Shown in pieces: positions 5,491 to 15,426 of a DNA stretch of 64,000 bases. The stretch's first letter is position 1. Each line of letters starts with the position of its first letter. A model generated the notes under the pieces. The model searched no databases and was not told the DNA's origin. It saw nothing but the letters and a program-made list of their open reading frames with translations. The DNA comes from Verrucomicrobiota bacterium (lineage in GTDB: Bacteria > Verrucomicrobiota > Verrucomicrobiia > Verrucomicrobiales > DEV007), in NCBI GenBank assembly GCA_963205275.1, contig CAUJIH010000103.1:62001-126000 (forward strand), in the 5' to 3' direction. A program made the position numbers and the translations under genes.

Positions 5491-6858
5491 TTAATTCGTA
5501 TTCGCTTTCGCCCCAGGGATCACCAGCGGCGTGGTGTCAGGCTTCCACAGATGACGCAGCACCCGGGCCATATCGATCAGGAACAGGATCACTCCCACCG
5601 TCAGCATCCCGATTCCTGCGATGAGCCAGTATTTCCCGACAATCCAAGCCCCCACGACCATGGGAAGAGCCGAGAACTGTTGCAAGCCGAGGCCCCATAA
5701 TTCGAGCTTCGCATTTGTCATCGTATGAGCCGGAGGAGTGTAGCGTTTCCCCACCCAGGGACCGTAGGCACGCATCCAAGTGAGAAATGGCACGACCTTA
5801 CACATCATTCCCGTCACGCAGGGCAGTAGTCCACCGAAGATCGCGAGGATCGCGTAAGTCATAGCATTGAAGCCACTAAAAGCGTCCGCCCGGGTCGATC
5901 CGTAGATGGCTAGAAAAATGGCGACAATCGCAGCGACACAAATCCCGATGCAGCCGCGCAGAAATACGACAACACCGGGATCAATTCGCTTTTTCCTTCG
6001 ATCCTTCATCGCCTGCTTGATCCCGACGGCAGAAAATCCCAGCCCCACCGCAATCACAGTAGTGGCGATCACTTCTAGGATGGTGTTCTCCATCACCAAA
6101 CCGGGAATCAGCAGCAAAAGTCCGATCTGCGTGCACCAGACGCCCGCCTTCGCCGGTCCCCAGTTTTTCACCTGTCCCATCGTGAACATGGGGACAAGCT
6201 GAAATCCGACTCCCTGGATCAAGGTAAGGAAAAATCCGATCAGCCCCAGATGAGCATGTGCTCGCAGCAGAGCGATGGGATTCAGAGGGACCCAACCCCA
6301 GAGACGATTGGCGATCAGGAATAGACCAGCGAACACCGTAATTAAAAGCCAGATTGCAGCGATCAGAATGCCGATAGCGATCACGTCGCGACGTTTCGAT
6401 CCGAGAACGGTCCGGATCGCGTTGACACTAAATAAGATAACGCCGACGATAACGATTCCTCCGAACCAGCCGACCAGATCATATCGATTGAACCAGAACG
6501 AAATCACCATACCCGGCACTCCCAATCCATGAAGCCAGAAGTGGAGCCACCCGAAGGTCTCGTTCCACAAGGTGGTGCTGAGAGCCACGGGTACGAGCTG
6601 ATAGACGGCACCGCAGGCAACGGTGGCGAAGAAGCCGAGCATCCAGGCGTGTGTCAGTGACACAACTTGGGGCGAAAAGTGAGGCTGAAACAGCATCGTC
6701 GGATGCCCAAGCATCACACCGACAGCGGCGATCAGCCAGAGCATGGCCAGCCCCATGAATAACAGCGGCAGTCTCCCCTGTGAGGCGAGCCAACTCTTGT
6801 TGACCGCGCCTCCACCGGAAGGTGCCGCTGCTGAGGGTTTGGGAAGAGAGTCAGACAC
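5491..6858 (-). CDS. Heme-copper oxidase subunit I-like membrane protein (CcoN/NorB/NnrS superfamily)
   Basis: 455 residues with about 12 predicted membrane helices. Histidines sit in the helices as in heme-binding relatives: LTHAWMLGF, LHFWLHGLG and LLRAHAHLGLIGFF. It is annotated in relatives as cbb3-type subunit I or NnrS-like. The usual catalytic Cu-site histidines cannot be assigned by eye, and no cytochrome c subunit genes are adjacent, so terminal oxidase activity is not shown. It starts with GTG at 6858 and overlaps the end of the DUF2249 gene by 8 bases (translational coupling). A role in NO handling or low-oxygen respiration is inferred from its partners. Confidence 0.7.
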   Translation of the reverse strand: MSDSLPKPSAAAPSGGGAVNKSWLASQGRLPLLFMGLAMLWLIAAVGVMLGHPTMLFQPHFSPQVVSLTHAWMLGFFATVACGAVYQLVPVALSTTLWNETFGWLHFWLHGLGVPGMVISFWFNRYDLVGWFGGIVIVGVILFSVNAIRTVLGSKRRDVIAIGILIAAIWLLITVFAGLFLIANRLWGWVPLNPIALLRAHAHLGLIGFFLTLIQGVGFQLVPMFTMGQVKNWGPAKAGVWCTQIGLLLLIPGLVMENTILEVIATTVIAVGLGFSAVGIKQAMKDRRKKRIDPGVVVFLRGCIGICVAAIVAIFLAIYGSTRADAFSGFNAMTYAILAIFGGLLPCVTGMMCKVVPFLTWMRAYGPWVGKRYTPPAHTMTNAKLELWGLGLQQFSALPMVVGAWIVGKYWLIAGIGMLTVGVILFLIDMARVLRHLWKPDTTPLVIPGAKANTN

Positions 6859-7633
6859 GGGAAAGAATGGTCACCCAGGTCCCGTCGTTTTGCTCCGTGC
6901 AGTCACTGCTAAAGCCGCGCTGCTCTGCCTCTGGGAAGAGATGGCAGGGTTCACGATCCGTGCGAGCTCGAAGTTTCGTATGGGCAGGCAGAGCCTCTAG
7001 CGCTGCCAGAATACGCACGAGCGGCTCCGGCGGCTCCAATCCGGTCGCGTCGATCTCCTGCACTCCTGCTTCAGCCTGCGTTACGGGAGTCGGAGCGGAT
7101 TCTTTTTGCTCAGGAGCCTCGACAGGGGCTAGCTTGGTGATCTTCACTCGATATTCCTCTGGACCGCGCTCCAGATATTCCCAAGAAAATTTACCCGCGA
7201 ACTCACCATCGAACTGATACTTCAGCGGAATGGGATCGTGGTCATTCAAGAGCACGAAGAACTCATTGACCGGCAGATTGAGCCAGCGCTCAAAAATCTG
7301 CTGGTGCTTCACTCGCCCAGGGATGGGACGCACATCAAAAACAACTTTCGGATCGCGGTTCGGATCGTCTGCTGGATCTGTAGAGACGATCTTCGTGATC
7401 TTCACCCGAAACTCTTCCGGCCCCTGCTCCAAGTATTCCCAGGTAAACTTCCCGTCGTATTCAGCGTCGAACTGATACTTCAGCGGAATGGGATCGTGGT
7501 CATTCAGTAGAACGAAGAACTCGTTGACCGGTAGATTTTGCCATCGCAGGAATATTTGCGTGTGCTTGATGCGTCCGGGGATGGGACGTACATCGAACAC
7601 GACGCTTGGATCATTGTCGGGGATTGCACTCAT
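6851..7633 (-). CDS. Triple-domain DUF2249 protein
   Basis: 260 residues built of three DUF2249 units. Units 1 and 2 (about 12-83 and 97-167) are near-identical: FDVRPIPGR, then LPVNEFFVLLNDHDPIPLKYQF, then WEYLEQGPEEFRVKITK. Unit 3 (about 190-260) is diverged and shorter, with VQEIDATGLEPPEPLVRIL and a TWVTILSRV end. DUF2249 proteins are small TusA-like folds that often neighbour NO-stress or denitrification genes. It is first in an operon with a heme-copper oxidase-like gene and a SufT-like gene. Two near-copies in tandem indicate a recent internal duplication. The biochemical role is unknown. Confidence 0.75.
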   Translation of the reverse strand: MSAIPDNDPSVVFDVRPIPGRIKHTQIFLRWQNLPVNEFFVLLNDHDPIPLKYQFDAEYDGKFTWEYLEQGPEEFRVKITKIVSTDPADDPNRDPKVVFDVRPIPGRVKHQQIFERWLNLPVNEFFVLLNDHDPIPLKYQFDGEFAGKFSWEYLERGPEEYRVKITKLAPVEAPEQKESAPTPVTQAEAGVQEIDATGLEPPEPLVRILAALEALPAHTKLRARTDREPCHLFPEAEQRGFSSDCTEQNDGTWVTILSRV

Positions 7634-11359: not shown

Positions 11360-11704
11360 ATGAATCATCGCTATACTCGTCTTCTCCTCCTCGCTACTCT
11401 CGCCGTTTTTGGAGCTGTCCTCAGCTTCGGAGCCGAGACCGGTTCGCTGAAAATCATCAAATTCGAGGCCGAATGGTGCGGCCCCTGCAAAGCGATGCGT
11501 CCGGCCTATAATAAAGTCTCGAAATCAGAACCTGGAGTCGAGTTCCAGACGGTCGATATCGATCAGCAACCGAAAATAGCCGACAGCTATAAAGTCGAAG
11601 TCGTACCCACAATAGTGGCGGTAAAAAATGGCCGTGTTGTCGGGAAGTTGATTGGTCTTCAAAGCGAAGCCCAGCTTCGCAAATTCGTAAAAAAGAATCG
11701 CTAA
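11360..11704 (+). CDS. Secreted thioredoxin-family protein
   Basis: 114 residues: an N-terminal signal peptide (hydrophobic LLLLATLAVFGAVLSFGA, residues 8-25) followed by a compact thioredoxin fold. The active site is W-C40-G-P-C43 and the cis-proline is P83 in VVPTIVAVKNG. It should act as a periplasmic thiol-disulfide oxidoreductase. No partner (CcdA/DsbD) gene is adjacent. The canonical CGPC favours a reductase over an oxidase role. Confidence 0.85.
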   Translation: MNHRYTRLLLLATLAVFGAVLSFGAETGSLKIIKFEAEWCGPCKAMRPAYNKVSKSEPGVEFQTVDIDQQPKIADSYKVEVVPTIVAVKNGRVVGKLIGLQSEAQLRKFVKKNR

Positions 11705-11749: not shown

Positions 11750-13381
11750 TCAGCCCAGCATTGAACGCTCAATAAAGCCCTGAATCGTTCCTCCGTCGAG
11801 ACCGGGCACGTTGTAGAGATCGTCATAAGTCTCGAAGGGGCGGTGATCGATGATGAGTTGTGCCATGTAGCTGTCGATCCCTGGGAGAGTCTGTAGCTCG
11901 TCCCAAGAGGCGTGATTGAGATCGACCACGGGGCCATCCGGAACGCAGTTCTCAAACTCTGAGTCTGTTCGCGATTCGGATTCGCCGGGATCAAGATTCT
12001 CTAATTCGACGTGATCGCTGTCGAAGGCAGTGTGAGATTCGCTCGTGCTCTCATGCCAGCTTTCGTCGTAATTACTAGATTCTGAATGTGGGGAATCTTC
12101 CTCTGTCGGCTCGCCGTGGAGCGTGTCTCGACTCACGTGATCGCTTTCCTCTGCGATCAAGCCGGGATGATCTTTCTCATATTGCTCAATCTCCGCCCGG
12201 TGAAGCTCTGCTTTTTCCTCTTCCGACAGCTCGGAGGTGGGTTTACGATAGAGGGCTTCCAGACGAAGCTTTTCAGCGGCTTCCTGCGCACGCTCTCGCT
12301 TCTCTCGTGATTTCTCGATGATCGAGGCGACAATGATACAGATCTCGTAAAGCAGAATCAGGGGGACCCCGAGCAGGGCCATCGTGAAGGCATCCGGACT
12401 GGGAGTCAAAATCGCTGCCAGCACTATGATGATGATCCAGGCGTAAGATCGGGTGTTGCGCATCACTCGAGCCGTCAATAGCTGTAGCTTGACCAAGATG
12501 GTGACGACGATAGGCATCTGGAAGCTGATGCCGAAGACGAGCACGAGTTGGGAGACGAAGCTGATGTAATATCCGATCCGATAAACGCTCTTCCCGCCCT
12601 TGGCAGGAACGAGGGCAATCTTGTCACGCACATTATCGTAGCGAAGAGCAAAATTCGACCCCTCCGCCGTGGTCAGCGTCTCGAGGAGATAAGTGCGGAT
12701 TTCATTGCGCATCTCGGGCGAAAGCTTGGAAGTCGATTCAAATTTTTCACCCTTTTTTACCGGAGGAATCCGAGTTCCCTCCACCCCGATCAAAGCGATC
12801 TCGGACGCTGGACGAGCCAGTGCCTCATTCGCTGGATCAGTGGCCGTTAAACGCTCATTCTCGAATTGGTAGAAGTATTTCAGAGCGAAAGGCGTCGCTA
12901 AGAAGAAGGCGAACGATCCACCCAGAAGAAACAGAATGAATCCAGCGGCGACCCCGGGGATGATCGTCCGCTTTTCCACTTGCCGCAGTCCGGGCATCAG
13001 AAATTGGAAGAGGAAAAAGACGACAAAGGGAAACGTGAGGATCAATCCGACGTAGAAGGCCAGCTTAAACATCAGGAAGATCATCTCCGTCGGGGCCAAC
13101 GGAGTCAGCTCGAGCTTGTCATAGAGCGAAACGCCCTCGGCAACATCTGCAAAATGGGACTTCGCTGGGAGCTGCACTAGCTGAAAGATCTCTTTGTTGA
13201 AAATGAAGGCGACACAGGTAGCAATCACTAGCGTCCCGATAATTCTGAACAAGGTGACGCGCAGATCGTCGAGATGATCGAGAAAGGGCTTCTCATGTGG
13301 ATCGAAACCATCGTCCGCGCCGGGACGCATGGCTGCTTGCTCTCTGAGACGGAAGAGTTTTTTGACAACGAACTGGATCAT
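11750..13381 (-). CDS. tatC: TatC translocase subunit with C-terminal helix-hairpin-helix domain
   Basis: Core of the twin-arginine translocase. The first cytoplasmic segment carries FLDHLDDLRVTLFRI (family HLEELR). The last helices carry ILTPSPDAFTMALLGVPLILLYEICI. At 543 residues it is about twice the usual length. About 90 extra residues lie in the periplasmic loop between helices 3 and 4 (roughly 184-275). After helix 6 come a charged, Glu/Ser-rich linker (about 365-480) and a ComEA-like helix-hairpin-helix (about 482-543: VDLNHASWDELQTLPGID, then AQLIIDHRPFETYDDLYNVPGL). That domain would be cytoplasmic. There is a GGAG ribosome site. No tatA/B in the window. Confidence 0.93.
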   Translation of the reverse strand: MIQFVVKKLFRLREQAAMRPGADDGFDPHEKPFLDHLDDLRVTLFRIIGTLVIATCVAFIFNKEIFQLVQLPAKSHFADVAEGVSLYDKLELTPLAPTEMIFLMFKLAFYVGLILTFPFVVFFLFQFLMPGLRQVEKRTIIPGVAAGFILFLLGGSFAFFLATPFALKYFYQFENERLTATDPANEALARPASEIALIGVEGTRIPPVKKGEKFESTSKLSPEMRNEIRTYLLETLTTAEGSNFALRYDNVRDKIALVPAKGGKSVYRIGYYISFVSQLVLVFGISFQMPIVVTILVKLQLLTARVMRNTRSYAWIIIIVLAAILTPSPDAFTMALLGVPLILLYEICIIVASIIEKSREKRERAQEAAEKLRLEALYRKPTSELSEEEKAELHRAEIEQYEKDHPGLIAEESDHVSRDTLHGEPTEEDSPHSESSNYDESWHESTSESHTAFDSDHVELENLDPGESESRTDSEFENCVPDGPVVDLNHASWDELQTLPGIDSYMAQLIIDHRPFETYDDLYNVPGLDGGTIQGFIERSMLG

Positions 13382-13503: not shown

Positions 13504-15426
13504 TCACTGCTTCGGAGCAGCGGACGCTTCCTTGTAGGACTGAAGACGCTTGCTGTATTCCTCTTTGTCGGGGGATAGGTTCACCGCTTTTTCGAGGTAC
13601 TCGATTGCTTTGGCCTGATCACCCAATGCGTGAAAGGTCTGGCCGATGTGATCGTAAATGACCGAATCTTCTTCATCGATCAGCGATTCCGCTTTCTGAA
13701 GTGCATCGCGGGCCTCCTCAAAGCGCCCTTTCTTGAAATAAAACCAACCCAGACTGTCGAGAATCGCACCGTTGTCTGGATCTAATTCCGAGGCGGTTTT
13801 GATCAGCTCACCGGCCTCGTCGACCTTCATGTCATTCTCCAGCCACATGTAGCCCAGGTAATTATACACAGTCGCAGAGAATTTCTGATTCCCGTCTCCA
13901 TCTTGCGCATTCCCCAGCATTCCGATCGTTTTGCGGAATAAGTCTTCGGCTTTTCCGAACTCCCCGTTTCTCTCATACGCCGCAGCATAACGGAAATAAA
14001 ATCCCGCATTTAGCGCCTGCGGTAGAGCCTTTTCCGCCAAGGGAATCGTTTTCTGAAACTGAGTGATGGCATCCGCCCATTTTTCCTGTCCAGACAGAGC
14101 GTAAGTCAGGAGTAGCGGGAACTCGGACGACTCTGGGAAAAGGCCACCCGTCTGCTGCAGAAACTCGACGGCAGACCCATACTCCTTCGCTTCGATCATC
14201 ATCCGCCCGAGAGCACTGTATTCCTCCTCGCTCCCCTTCGTGATCGCCAGTGCCGCCCGAAAATGGGGAATCGCCTCTTTATAACGCTCCGCTCGAAGAA
14301 AGATCCCCGCGAGACGACGGTGAACCTCCGCATTTTCGGAGTCAATTTTTGACAATGCTTCCAGAGTCGCGATTTCGTTCTCCGTATCGCCAGCAGCTCC
14401 ATACGCTCGCGCCAGCTTTTCTCTTACTTCCAGACTCGCCGGACTCATTCCGACACATTTTTTGAAAGCGGAAATCGCTTGGTCGATTTGTCCGCTACTG
14501 AGATAGAAGTCGCCTACGCTTTCGATCACTCCCTCATCTTCTCCGGCTCGATCCATCGCCTTGCTGAAGATTCCACCCACCAGCGTCGCATTCGGCCCCG
14601 ATCCGCCCTTTTCGATGGGCCAAGCTCGCACAGCGATCCGCCCGAGATCGAGCCAAAATCGAGGATCGCTATGATCTTGCTTCAGCACTTCAGATACGAT
14701 ACTGCGGGCTTCATCTCGCCTCTGGAGCGAGGAATACAGAGCGATCAAGTGACCATAGACTGCTACCTCATCTGGGAATTTCTTTACCGCTCCCTCCGCG
14801 ATCTCGAGCGCTCTCTTGATCGCATCCGTATCCTGACTCCGATAGGTCGACAGATATTCCGACAGGACGAGGTGAATCAGGTATTGACTAGGATTCTCAG
14901 AGAAGACTTTCTCCAACAGATCCTGCCCTTCCTGCACACGACCGGAATTCGCGAGCAAATGCGCGGTCTTCCGGGCGAGATCGATCTGTCCGGACTGATG
15001 ATCGAGCGAATTTCGGTAGGCCGCGATGGCATCTTCCATCCGCCCCTCATCCTCCAGTAATTGTCCGATGGCATACTGAGCCAGAGCGGCGCTCTTCTTC
15101 TGTCCCTCGGTCGAGAGATTCAGTCTCGCATCCGGTTCGAAGAATTGATCTACGTAGAGCTGCGCGAAGTCGTCGAGCTGCCTCGTCTTGGCAGGCGTGG
15201 ACGGCGTGGACGGCGTGGACGGCGTGGACGGCGTGGACGGCGTGGACGGCGTGGACGGCGTGGACGGCGCGGTCGAAACGGGAGCTTCAGCCCTACCTGT
15301 GGAAATCCACAGAGCCGAGAGCGTAACACCCGCGATGAGAAGACCTCGTAAGAAGGCGCTGTTCCCGAGCATGACGAAACGTTGGTGATCACATCGAGTC
15401 AGGCCACCAGTACGCTTCATTTTCAT
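13504..15426 (-). CDS. Secreted tetratricopeptide-repeat protein
   Basis: 640 residues: an N-terminal signal region (LRGLLIAGVTLSALWIS), a Ser-Thr-Pro low-complexity linker (eight STP units, about residues 54-77), then about 13 TPR units to the C-terminus (for example YAIGQLLEDEGRMEDAIAAYRNSL and YDHIGQTFHALGDQAKAIEYLEKA). TPR proteins scaffold protein complexes; this one should be periplasmic or outer-membrane attached. The true start may be an internal ATG, since MKMKRTGG precedes the hydrophobic core by about 25 residues. Its partners are unknown. Confidence 0.8.
   Translation of the reverse strand: MKMKRTGGLTRCDHQRFVMLGNSAFLRGLLIAGVTLSALWISTGRAEAPVSTAPSTPSTPSTPSTPSTPSTPSTPSTPAKTRQLDDFAQLYVDQFFEPDARLNLSTEGQKKSAALAQYAIGQLLEDEGRMEDAIAAYRNSLDHQSGQIDLARKTAHLLANSGRVQEGQDLLEKVFSENPSQYLIHLVLSEYLSTYRSQDTDAIKRALEIAEGAVKKFPDEVAVYGHLIALYSSLQRRDEARSIVSEVLKQDHSDPRFWLDLGRIAVRAWPIEKGGSGPNATLVGGIFSKAMDRAGEDEGVIESVGDFYLSSGQIDQAISAFKKCVGMSPASLEVREKLARAYGAAGDTENEIATLEALSKIDSENAEVHRRLAGIFLRAERYKEAIPHFRAALAITKGSEEEYSALGRMMIEAKEYGSAVEFLQQTGGLFPESSEFPLLLTYALSGQEKWADAITQFQKTIPLAEKALPQALNAGFYFRYAAAYERNGEFGKAEDLFRKTIGMLGNAQDGDGNQKFSATVYNYLGYMWLENDMKVDEAGELIKTASELDPDNGAILDSLGWFYFKKGRFEEARDALQKAESLIDEEDSVIYDHIGQTFHALGDQAKAIEYLEKAVNLSPDKEEYSKRLQSYKEASAAPKQ
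15194..15265. repeat. Nine-base minisatellite, eight perfect copies
   Basis: GGCGTGGAC is repeated eight times without a mismatch; on the coding strand it encodes (STP)8 in the TPR protein. Perfect identity suggests recent expansion, and unit changes of 9 bases keep the frame, so the linker length can vary between strains. Confidence 0.95.

Follow-up and report, generated by a model that had tools for sequence, protein, structure and literature searches.

TatC usually consists of six helices and little else, with an N-in/C-in topology, and it is, to our knowledge, still an open question by what means Tat receptors recruit TatA, substrates or chaperones. Helix-hairpin-helix domains of the (HhH)2 type carry a GhG motif in both hairpins, and the HhH domain of PsbU acts in photosystem II through contacts with protein. 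In the available part of PMC13323110, solved Tat cores are described as trimers, (TatBC)3, and the TatC proteins of Myxococcus xanthus and Nitratifractor salsuginis are described as having a large extra segment in a periplasmic loop. In nuclease-HhH fusions, as presented in the available part of PMC4777378, a ComEA-type HhH is grafted onto the C-terminus of another protein, where it gives the enzyme affinity for DNA. TatC, the ComEA-type HhH, HhH grafts and periplasmic inserts in TatC are thus known individually. A literature search at the level of titles and abstract openings, in which subscription journals were thinly covered, found no published TatC-HhH fusion, no His-rich TatC tail, and no description of the TatC and HhH combination, of a family in much of which it is fixed or of an alternative module in a sister clade.

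Within the window (by which we mean the whole 64,000-nucleotide stretch that was analysed), which comes from an uncultured Verrucomicrobiales bacterium, positions 11750-13381 on the minus strand form a single open reading frame with an ATG start that encodes a TatC of 543 residues with a C-terminal HhH (Table 1). This is the sole TatC detected across the 4.08 Mb assembly, which rules out a set of several TatC copies with only one of them fused. The TatC identity of the protein is clear from matches above the curated cut-offs to Pfam TatC (PF00902; two blocks, E 3.8e-52, 177.6 bits against a cut-off of 25.1) and to the NCBIfam tatC equivalog (TIGR00945; 1.8e-46, 158.8 bits against 132.7), and a comparison of the whole model with 4b4a (Foldseek E 1.2e-9, TM 0.88 by target) indicates that the TatC core fold is present. 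Beyond what PF00902 describes, the protein has an insert between TM3 and TM4 and about 180 residues after TM6 that end in the HhH. Because residues 2-141 and 146-240 of 4b4a align with residues 32-181 and 269-365 of the window protein, the insert amounts to about 89 residues (176-264), close to the roughly 90 extra periplasmic residues of the original prediction. It is predicted to contain helices and strands, with a pLDDT of about 64-84 in ten-residue blocks (AlphaFold). What the protein shares with those of M. xanthus and N. salsuginis is the presence of a large extra segment in a periplasmic loop; the available part of PMC13323110 does not mention an HhH tail in those proteins. Among relatives, the insert varies independently of the HhH, and genus g214 has the HhH without the insert.

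Table 1. Parts of the TatC-HhH protein, with their positions in the window.
Feature (residues)	Position	Strand	Basis
TatC core, block 1 (31-175, TM1-TM3)	12857..13291	-	Pfam TatC 35-175; 4b4a alignment; predicted helices
TM3-TM4 periplasmic-loop insert, ~89 residues (176-264)	12590..12856	-	Gap between Pfam blocks; 4b4a gap
TatC core, block 2 (265-362, TM4-TM6)	12296..12589	-	Pfam; 4b4a alignment; AlphaFold
Charged helical segment after TM6 (363-414)	12140..12295	-	AlphaFold; conserved residues
Disordered acidic, His-containing tether (415-477)	11951..12139	-	pLDDT; conserved (Y/H)DESWH motif; composition in relatives
(HhH)2 domain (478-543), C.P.GP through C-terminal glycine	11753..11950	-	HHH_3; alignments; AlphaFold; fold matches

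Around the end of TM6, AlphaFold predicts helices at residues 331-379, 387-404 and 406-414; the charged segment that follows the membrane core is first Lys/Arg-rich and then Glu-rich, and carries a conserved EQYE.(E/D)H motif. The long acidic linker that had been claimed for this protein is evident both in a net charge of -26 across residues 384-475 and in a pLDDT below 50 at residues 415-478 (31-46). Since TatC proteins are N-in/C-in and a Lys/Arg-rich stretch follows TM6, the C-terminal tail is predicted to be cytosolic, in agreement with the side on which the original prediction had placed the HhH.

The terminal domain itself matched Pfam HHH_3 at residues 485-532 (E 2.4e-11, 44 bits against a cut-off of 27) and PsbU (PF06514; E 3.4e-6), together with NCBIfam comE (TIGR01259; 1.9e-6), for which its 27.8 bits lie below a whole-protein cut-off of 152.35. 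It was modelled with a pLDDT of about 86-95 in the AlphaFold model and a mean of 86.3 when folded alone, with short strands predicted at its N- and C-terminal ends. The closest solved folds, by Foldseek and VIA-align, were 2duy (a ComEA-related protein of T. thermophilus, Z 11.3) and ComEA itself (8dss, Z 11.1), with identities of 32-36%, followed by Tex (Z 9.6-9.8) and PsbU (Z 5.2-6.7), although the best Foldseek E-values for the 68-residue model were modest (2e-3). Judged by the HHH_3 profile and the modelled fold, the end of this TatC is a ComEA-type (HhH)2 (PF12836), so that the claimed fusion with a ComEA-like HhH is borne out and its hairpin fold is confidently predicted. PsbU shares a related HhH fold, but is a free lumenal protein.

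The fusion is widespread among close relatives. TatC was detected in 52 of the 56 genomes searched (own and related). For the same genus, window included, it was detected in 29 of 33 genomes; the four without it are 63-86% complete. All 29 of these same-genus TatC proteins end in the HhH. Among family genomes of other genera, 37 of 40 yielded a TatC, and the ends of these proteins differ: the HhH is in frame with TatC in 13, a Lys/Glu/Leu-rich, probably amphipathic helix follows YYSGP or a close variant in 15, an acidic tail stands alone in 6 and a weakly SAP-like stretch is found in 1, while in the remaining 2 (G454, G481) contig ends separate TatC from a fragment of an HhH and the join is not seen. 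Every named record with the fusion is titled as a metagenome-assembled member of Verrucomicrobiales or Verrucomicrobia, 'Akkermansiaceae bacterium UBA5020' being one. The presence of the fusion in many independent assemblies rules out a sequencing or single-strain artefact, the outcome that the original prediction had named as fatal to it. Across 387 genomes of the phylum, a model of the tail found nothing outside the family near the 117 bits of the window protein (best other, 64). Among the matches listed from 288 genomes of the order, eight long-frame HhH loci from other families contained no TatC, and their frames look like secreted nucleases by a motif that we take to be a nuclease signature.

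In a tree of the TatC core (55 rows), the HhH-bearing rows and one fragment form a single clade (support 98/96, starred), the rows with the amphipathic helix form a clade of their own (100/99), and these clades are joined as sisters at an unstarred node (94/81). A single graft of the HhH onto TatC, in an ancestor shared by about eight genera, is probable, and module replacement appears in this tree as one change between two clades, with no repeated swapping.

Conservation was examined in an alignment of 36 sequences (A3: the window and 35 of 47 loci, leaving out L151 and L154-L164, which have no HhH or are incomplete); a further alignment (A1) has 27 of the 29 genus rows, without L042 and L045, whose frames showed no clear start. 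For the 15 closest same-genus pairs, the pooled pN/pS of the HhH was 0.121, compared with 0.068 and 0.076 for the two TatC core blocks, 0.105 for the segment after TM6, 0.197 for the linker and 0.220 for the insert. The HhH is under purifying selection, and because its mean pairwise identity also exceeds that of the linker (0.63 versus 0.50), it is retained as a functional part. Although TatC tails differ greatly in length and content within the order, as might be expected if such additions were functionless leftovers of a neutral fusion, this low pN/pS and the retention of the domain across about eight genera make that explanation highly improbable. In the 36 sequences, E402 and H405 of the EQYE.(E/D)H motif are invariant and D439 and W442 of the (Y/H)DESWH motif nearly so; outside the hairpins, Cys479, Gly483, Asn489, Arg514 and Arg539 of the HhH are invariant. 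Given the short strands modelled at both ends of the domain, its invariant end residues may be merely structural.

An HhH of ComEA type could in principle bind chromosomal DNA non-specifically and so keep the Tat receptor near the nucleoid, one of two roles originally proposed. Its nearest relatives in sequence and fold are ComEA domains, and a ComEA-type (HhH)2 fused to a nuclease acts as a DNA-binding domain in the available part of PMC4777378, where the host is an enzyme and not, as here, a membrane translocase. We compared the HhH cores of 42 TatC proteins with 14 short ComEA-like HhH proteins and 7 longer HhH proteins from genomes of the same family; these 21 controls were hand-chosen, 20 of them among the matches listed from the order-genome search, plus L072, and all 21 were kept in the charge comparison. 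L072, encoded in the window's own genome (C82), has an HhH of this type at its C-terminus; it is probably a secreted nuclease and a possible source of the domain. The mean net charge of the TatC domains is -5.14, against +1.57 for the short ComEA-like proteins (p 3e-7, with related sequences treated as independent) and -2.29 for the longer ones (p 0.036, kinship ignored), which are probably secreted nucleases and are mildly acidic.

The hairpins have changed as well. In the window protein they read GID and GLD, both second glycines being Asp, and so depart from the GhG pattern. Hairpin 1 retains its second glycine in 34 of 42 TatC copies and hairpin 2 in 19 of 42, as opposed to 14/14 short and 7/7 longer controls for each, and hairpin 2 is shortened in two relatives. 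The Lys before Arg is also lost from the TatC domains; since all seven longer controls lack it too (Glu), its loss alone does not mean that DNA binding was lost. Compared with described ComEA-type domains, which it resembles in fold, the window HhH is thus acidic, eroded in its hairpin glycines, fused to TatC and predicted to be cytosolic. At the level of sequence, these features favour the view that many TatC copies, the window protein among them, no longer contact DNA, although the full first hairpin in 34/42 copies and the second in 19/42 weigh against a purely docking role, and some of the copies with kept hairpins could still touch DNA. With a tether that is itself acidic and a sister clade that has an amphipathic helix in the position of the HhH, we consider a DNA tether improbable. 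Of the roles first suggested, docking of a partner is the one now favoured, and anchoring to DNA has lost ground because the domain is acidic, its hairpins are eroded and another module replaces it in the sister clade.

The sister-clade proteins end in YYSGP.EELK-type helices where the HhH sits in the window protein, and these helices sit on a similar His/Asp/Tyr-rich tether. Such helices, rich in Lys, Glu and Leu, probably amphipathic and variable in length, follow YYSGP in six genera (L165-L185, L210-L212). In genus g2, L061 has a basic, SAP-like C-terminal stretch where the HhH would be, the SAP identity of which is weak (Pfam SAP_new25 17.6 bits, below the cut-off of 26.3). Disordered tails rich in His, Asp and Tyr, with repeated DPYH-like words, follow the last TatC helix in families f1 and f3 of the order (L033-L060, L165-L185, L193-L212, L013-L018) and are largely missing from f2, f4 and f6. 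Most tails of family f1, whatever the terminal module, and also tails of family f3 contain His-rich stretches, in which a 40-residue segment can hold as many as 15 His. The tether itself might thus be the functional part, as a metal- or pH-responsive (metal-ligand or condensate-forming) stretch that the terminal module caps or anchors, and His/Asp/Tyr-rich tails of f1 and f3 are possible metal ligands. In the window protein, however, the richest 40-residue segment has only 5 His, with 2-4 in genus g3 and mostly no His-rich stretches in the tails of families f2, f4 and f6; as the HhH is also better conserved than the linker, we think this explanation has a low probability.

A different role for the tail is suggested by the composition of the host Tat system, in which a single TatA-family protein was detected, and by the one or two such proteins, mostly short frames, in each of 26 family genomes. 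The available part of a 2013 survey likewise lists Verrucomicrobia as lacking TatB (0 in 4 genomes; PMC3827258), and PMC9436932, in its available part, claims that TatB acts in a chaperone-like way. The tail might therefore stand in for the long cytosolic region of TatB in substrate handling or folding control, with the HhH contacting TatA or substrate. That Akkermansia-size relatives (family f2) have a nearly tailless TatC argues that the tail is dispensable in some such systems of the order, and we regard this possibility as unlikely, if worth keeping in view.

The analysis brought up neither a partner nor a co-varying gene. A small thioredoxin-like protein is encoded at 11360-11704, convergent with tatC, and adjoins it in many same-genus genomes, and in a large part of the genus mutS is found close to tatC; as the convergent thioredoxin gene and mutS suggest no partner, we dropped the attempt to infer one from neighbouring genes. 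On the other side, positions 13504-15426 encode a TPR protein that has a stretch of STP repeats close to its N-terminus and was not found beside tatC in the other same-genus loci. Elsewhere in the window, the protein encoded at 6851-7633 contains an internal segment of about 75 residues that is repeated almost exactly, as noted by eye (VVFDVRPIPGR... twice).

On balance, we give about even odds to the reading in which the HhH serves the TatC complex, at its cytosolic face, as a grafted, exchangeable module for protein docking (or self-association). The replacement of the HhH by an amphipathic helix on a similar tether in the sister clade fits such a role. In this docking model, a Tat system with one TatC and one detected TatA-family protein would have had a ComEA-type (HhH)2 grafted onto the end of a disordered acidic tether at the cytosolic C-terminus of TatC, with the domain turned from contacting nucleic acid to contacting protein. 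If this TatC is trimeric like the TatC of solved Tat complexes, each Tat receptor would have three tethered HhH modules below it, which could either bring in a cytosolic partner or link adjacent receptors to one another; the amphipathic helix would occupy their place in the sister clade. More tentatively, we suggest that this may be a Tat receptor with a tethered, trivalent and exchangeable cytosolic docking arm that recruits or clusters Tat components or a partner, an undescribed accessory layer whose variants would be the HhH in one clade, the amphipathic helix in its sister and perhaps the SAP-like stretch in one genus. A module fixed on the cytosolic face of the sole TatC would offer a handle for fishing out binders in a system with no obvious TatB, and the family appears to preserve, among its members, intermediates of a ComEA-type fold that is apparently shifting from DNA to protein contact.
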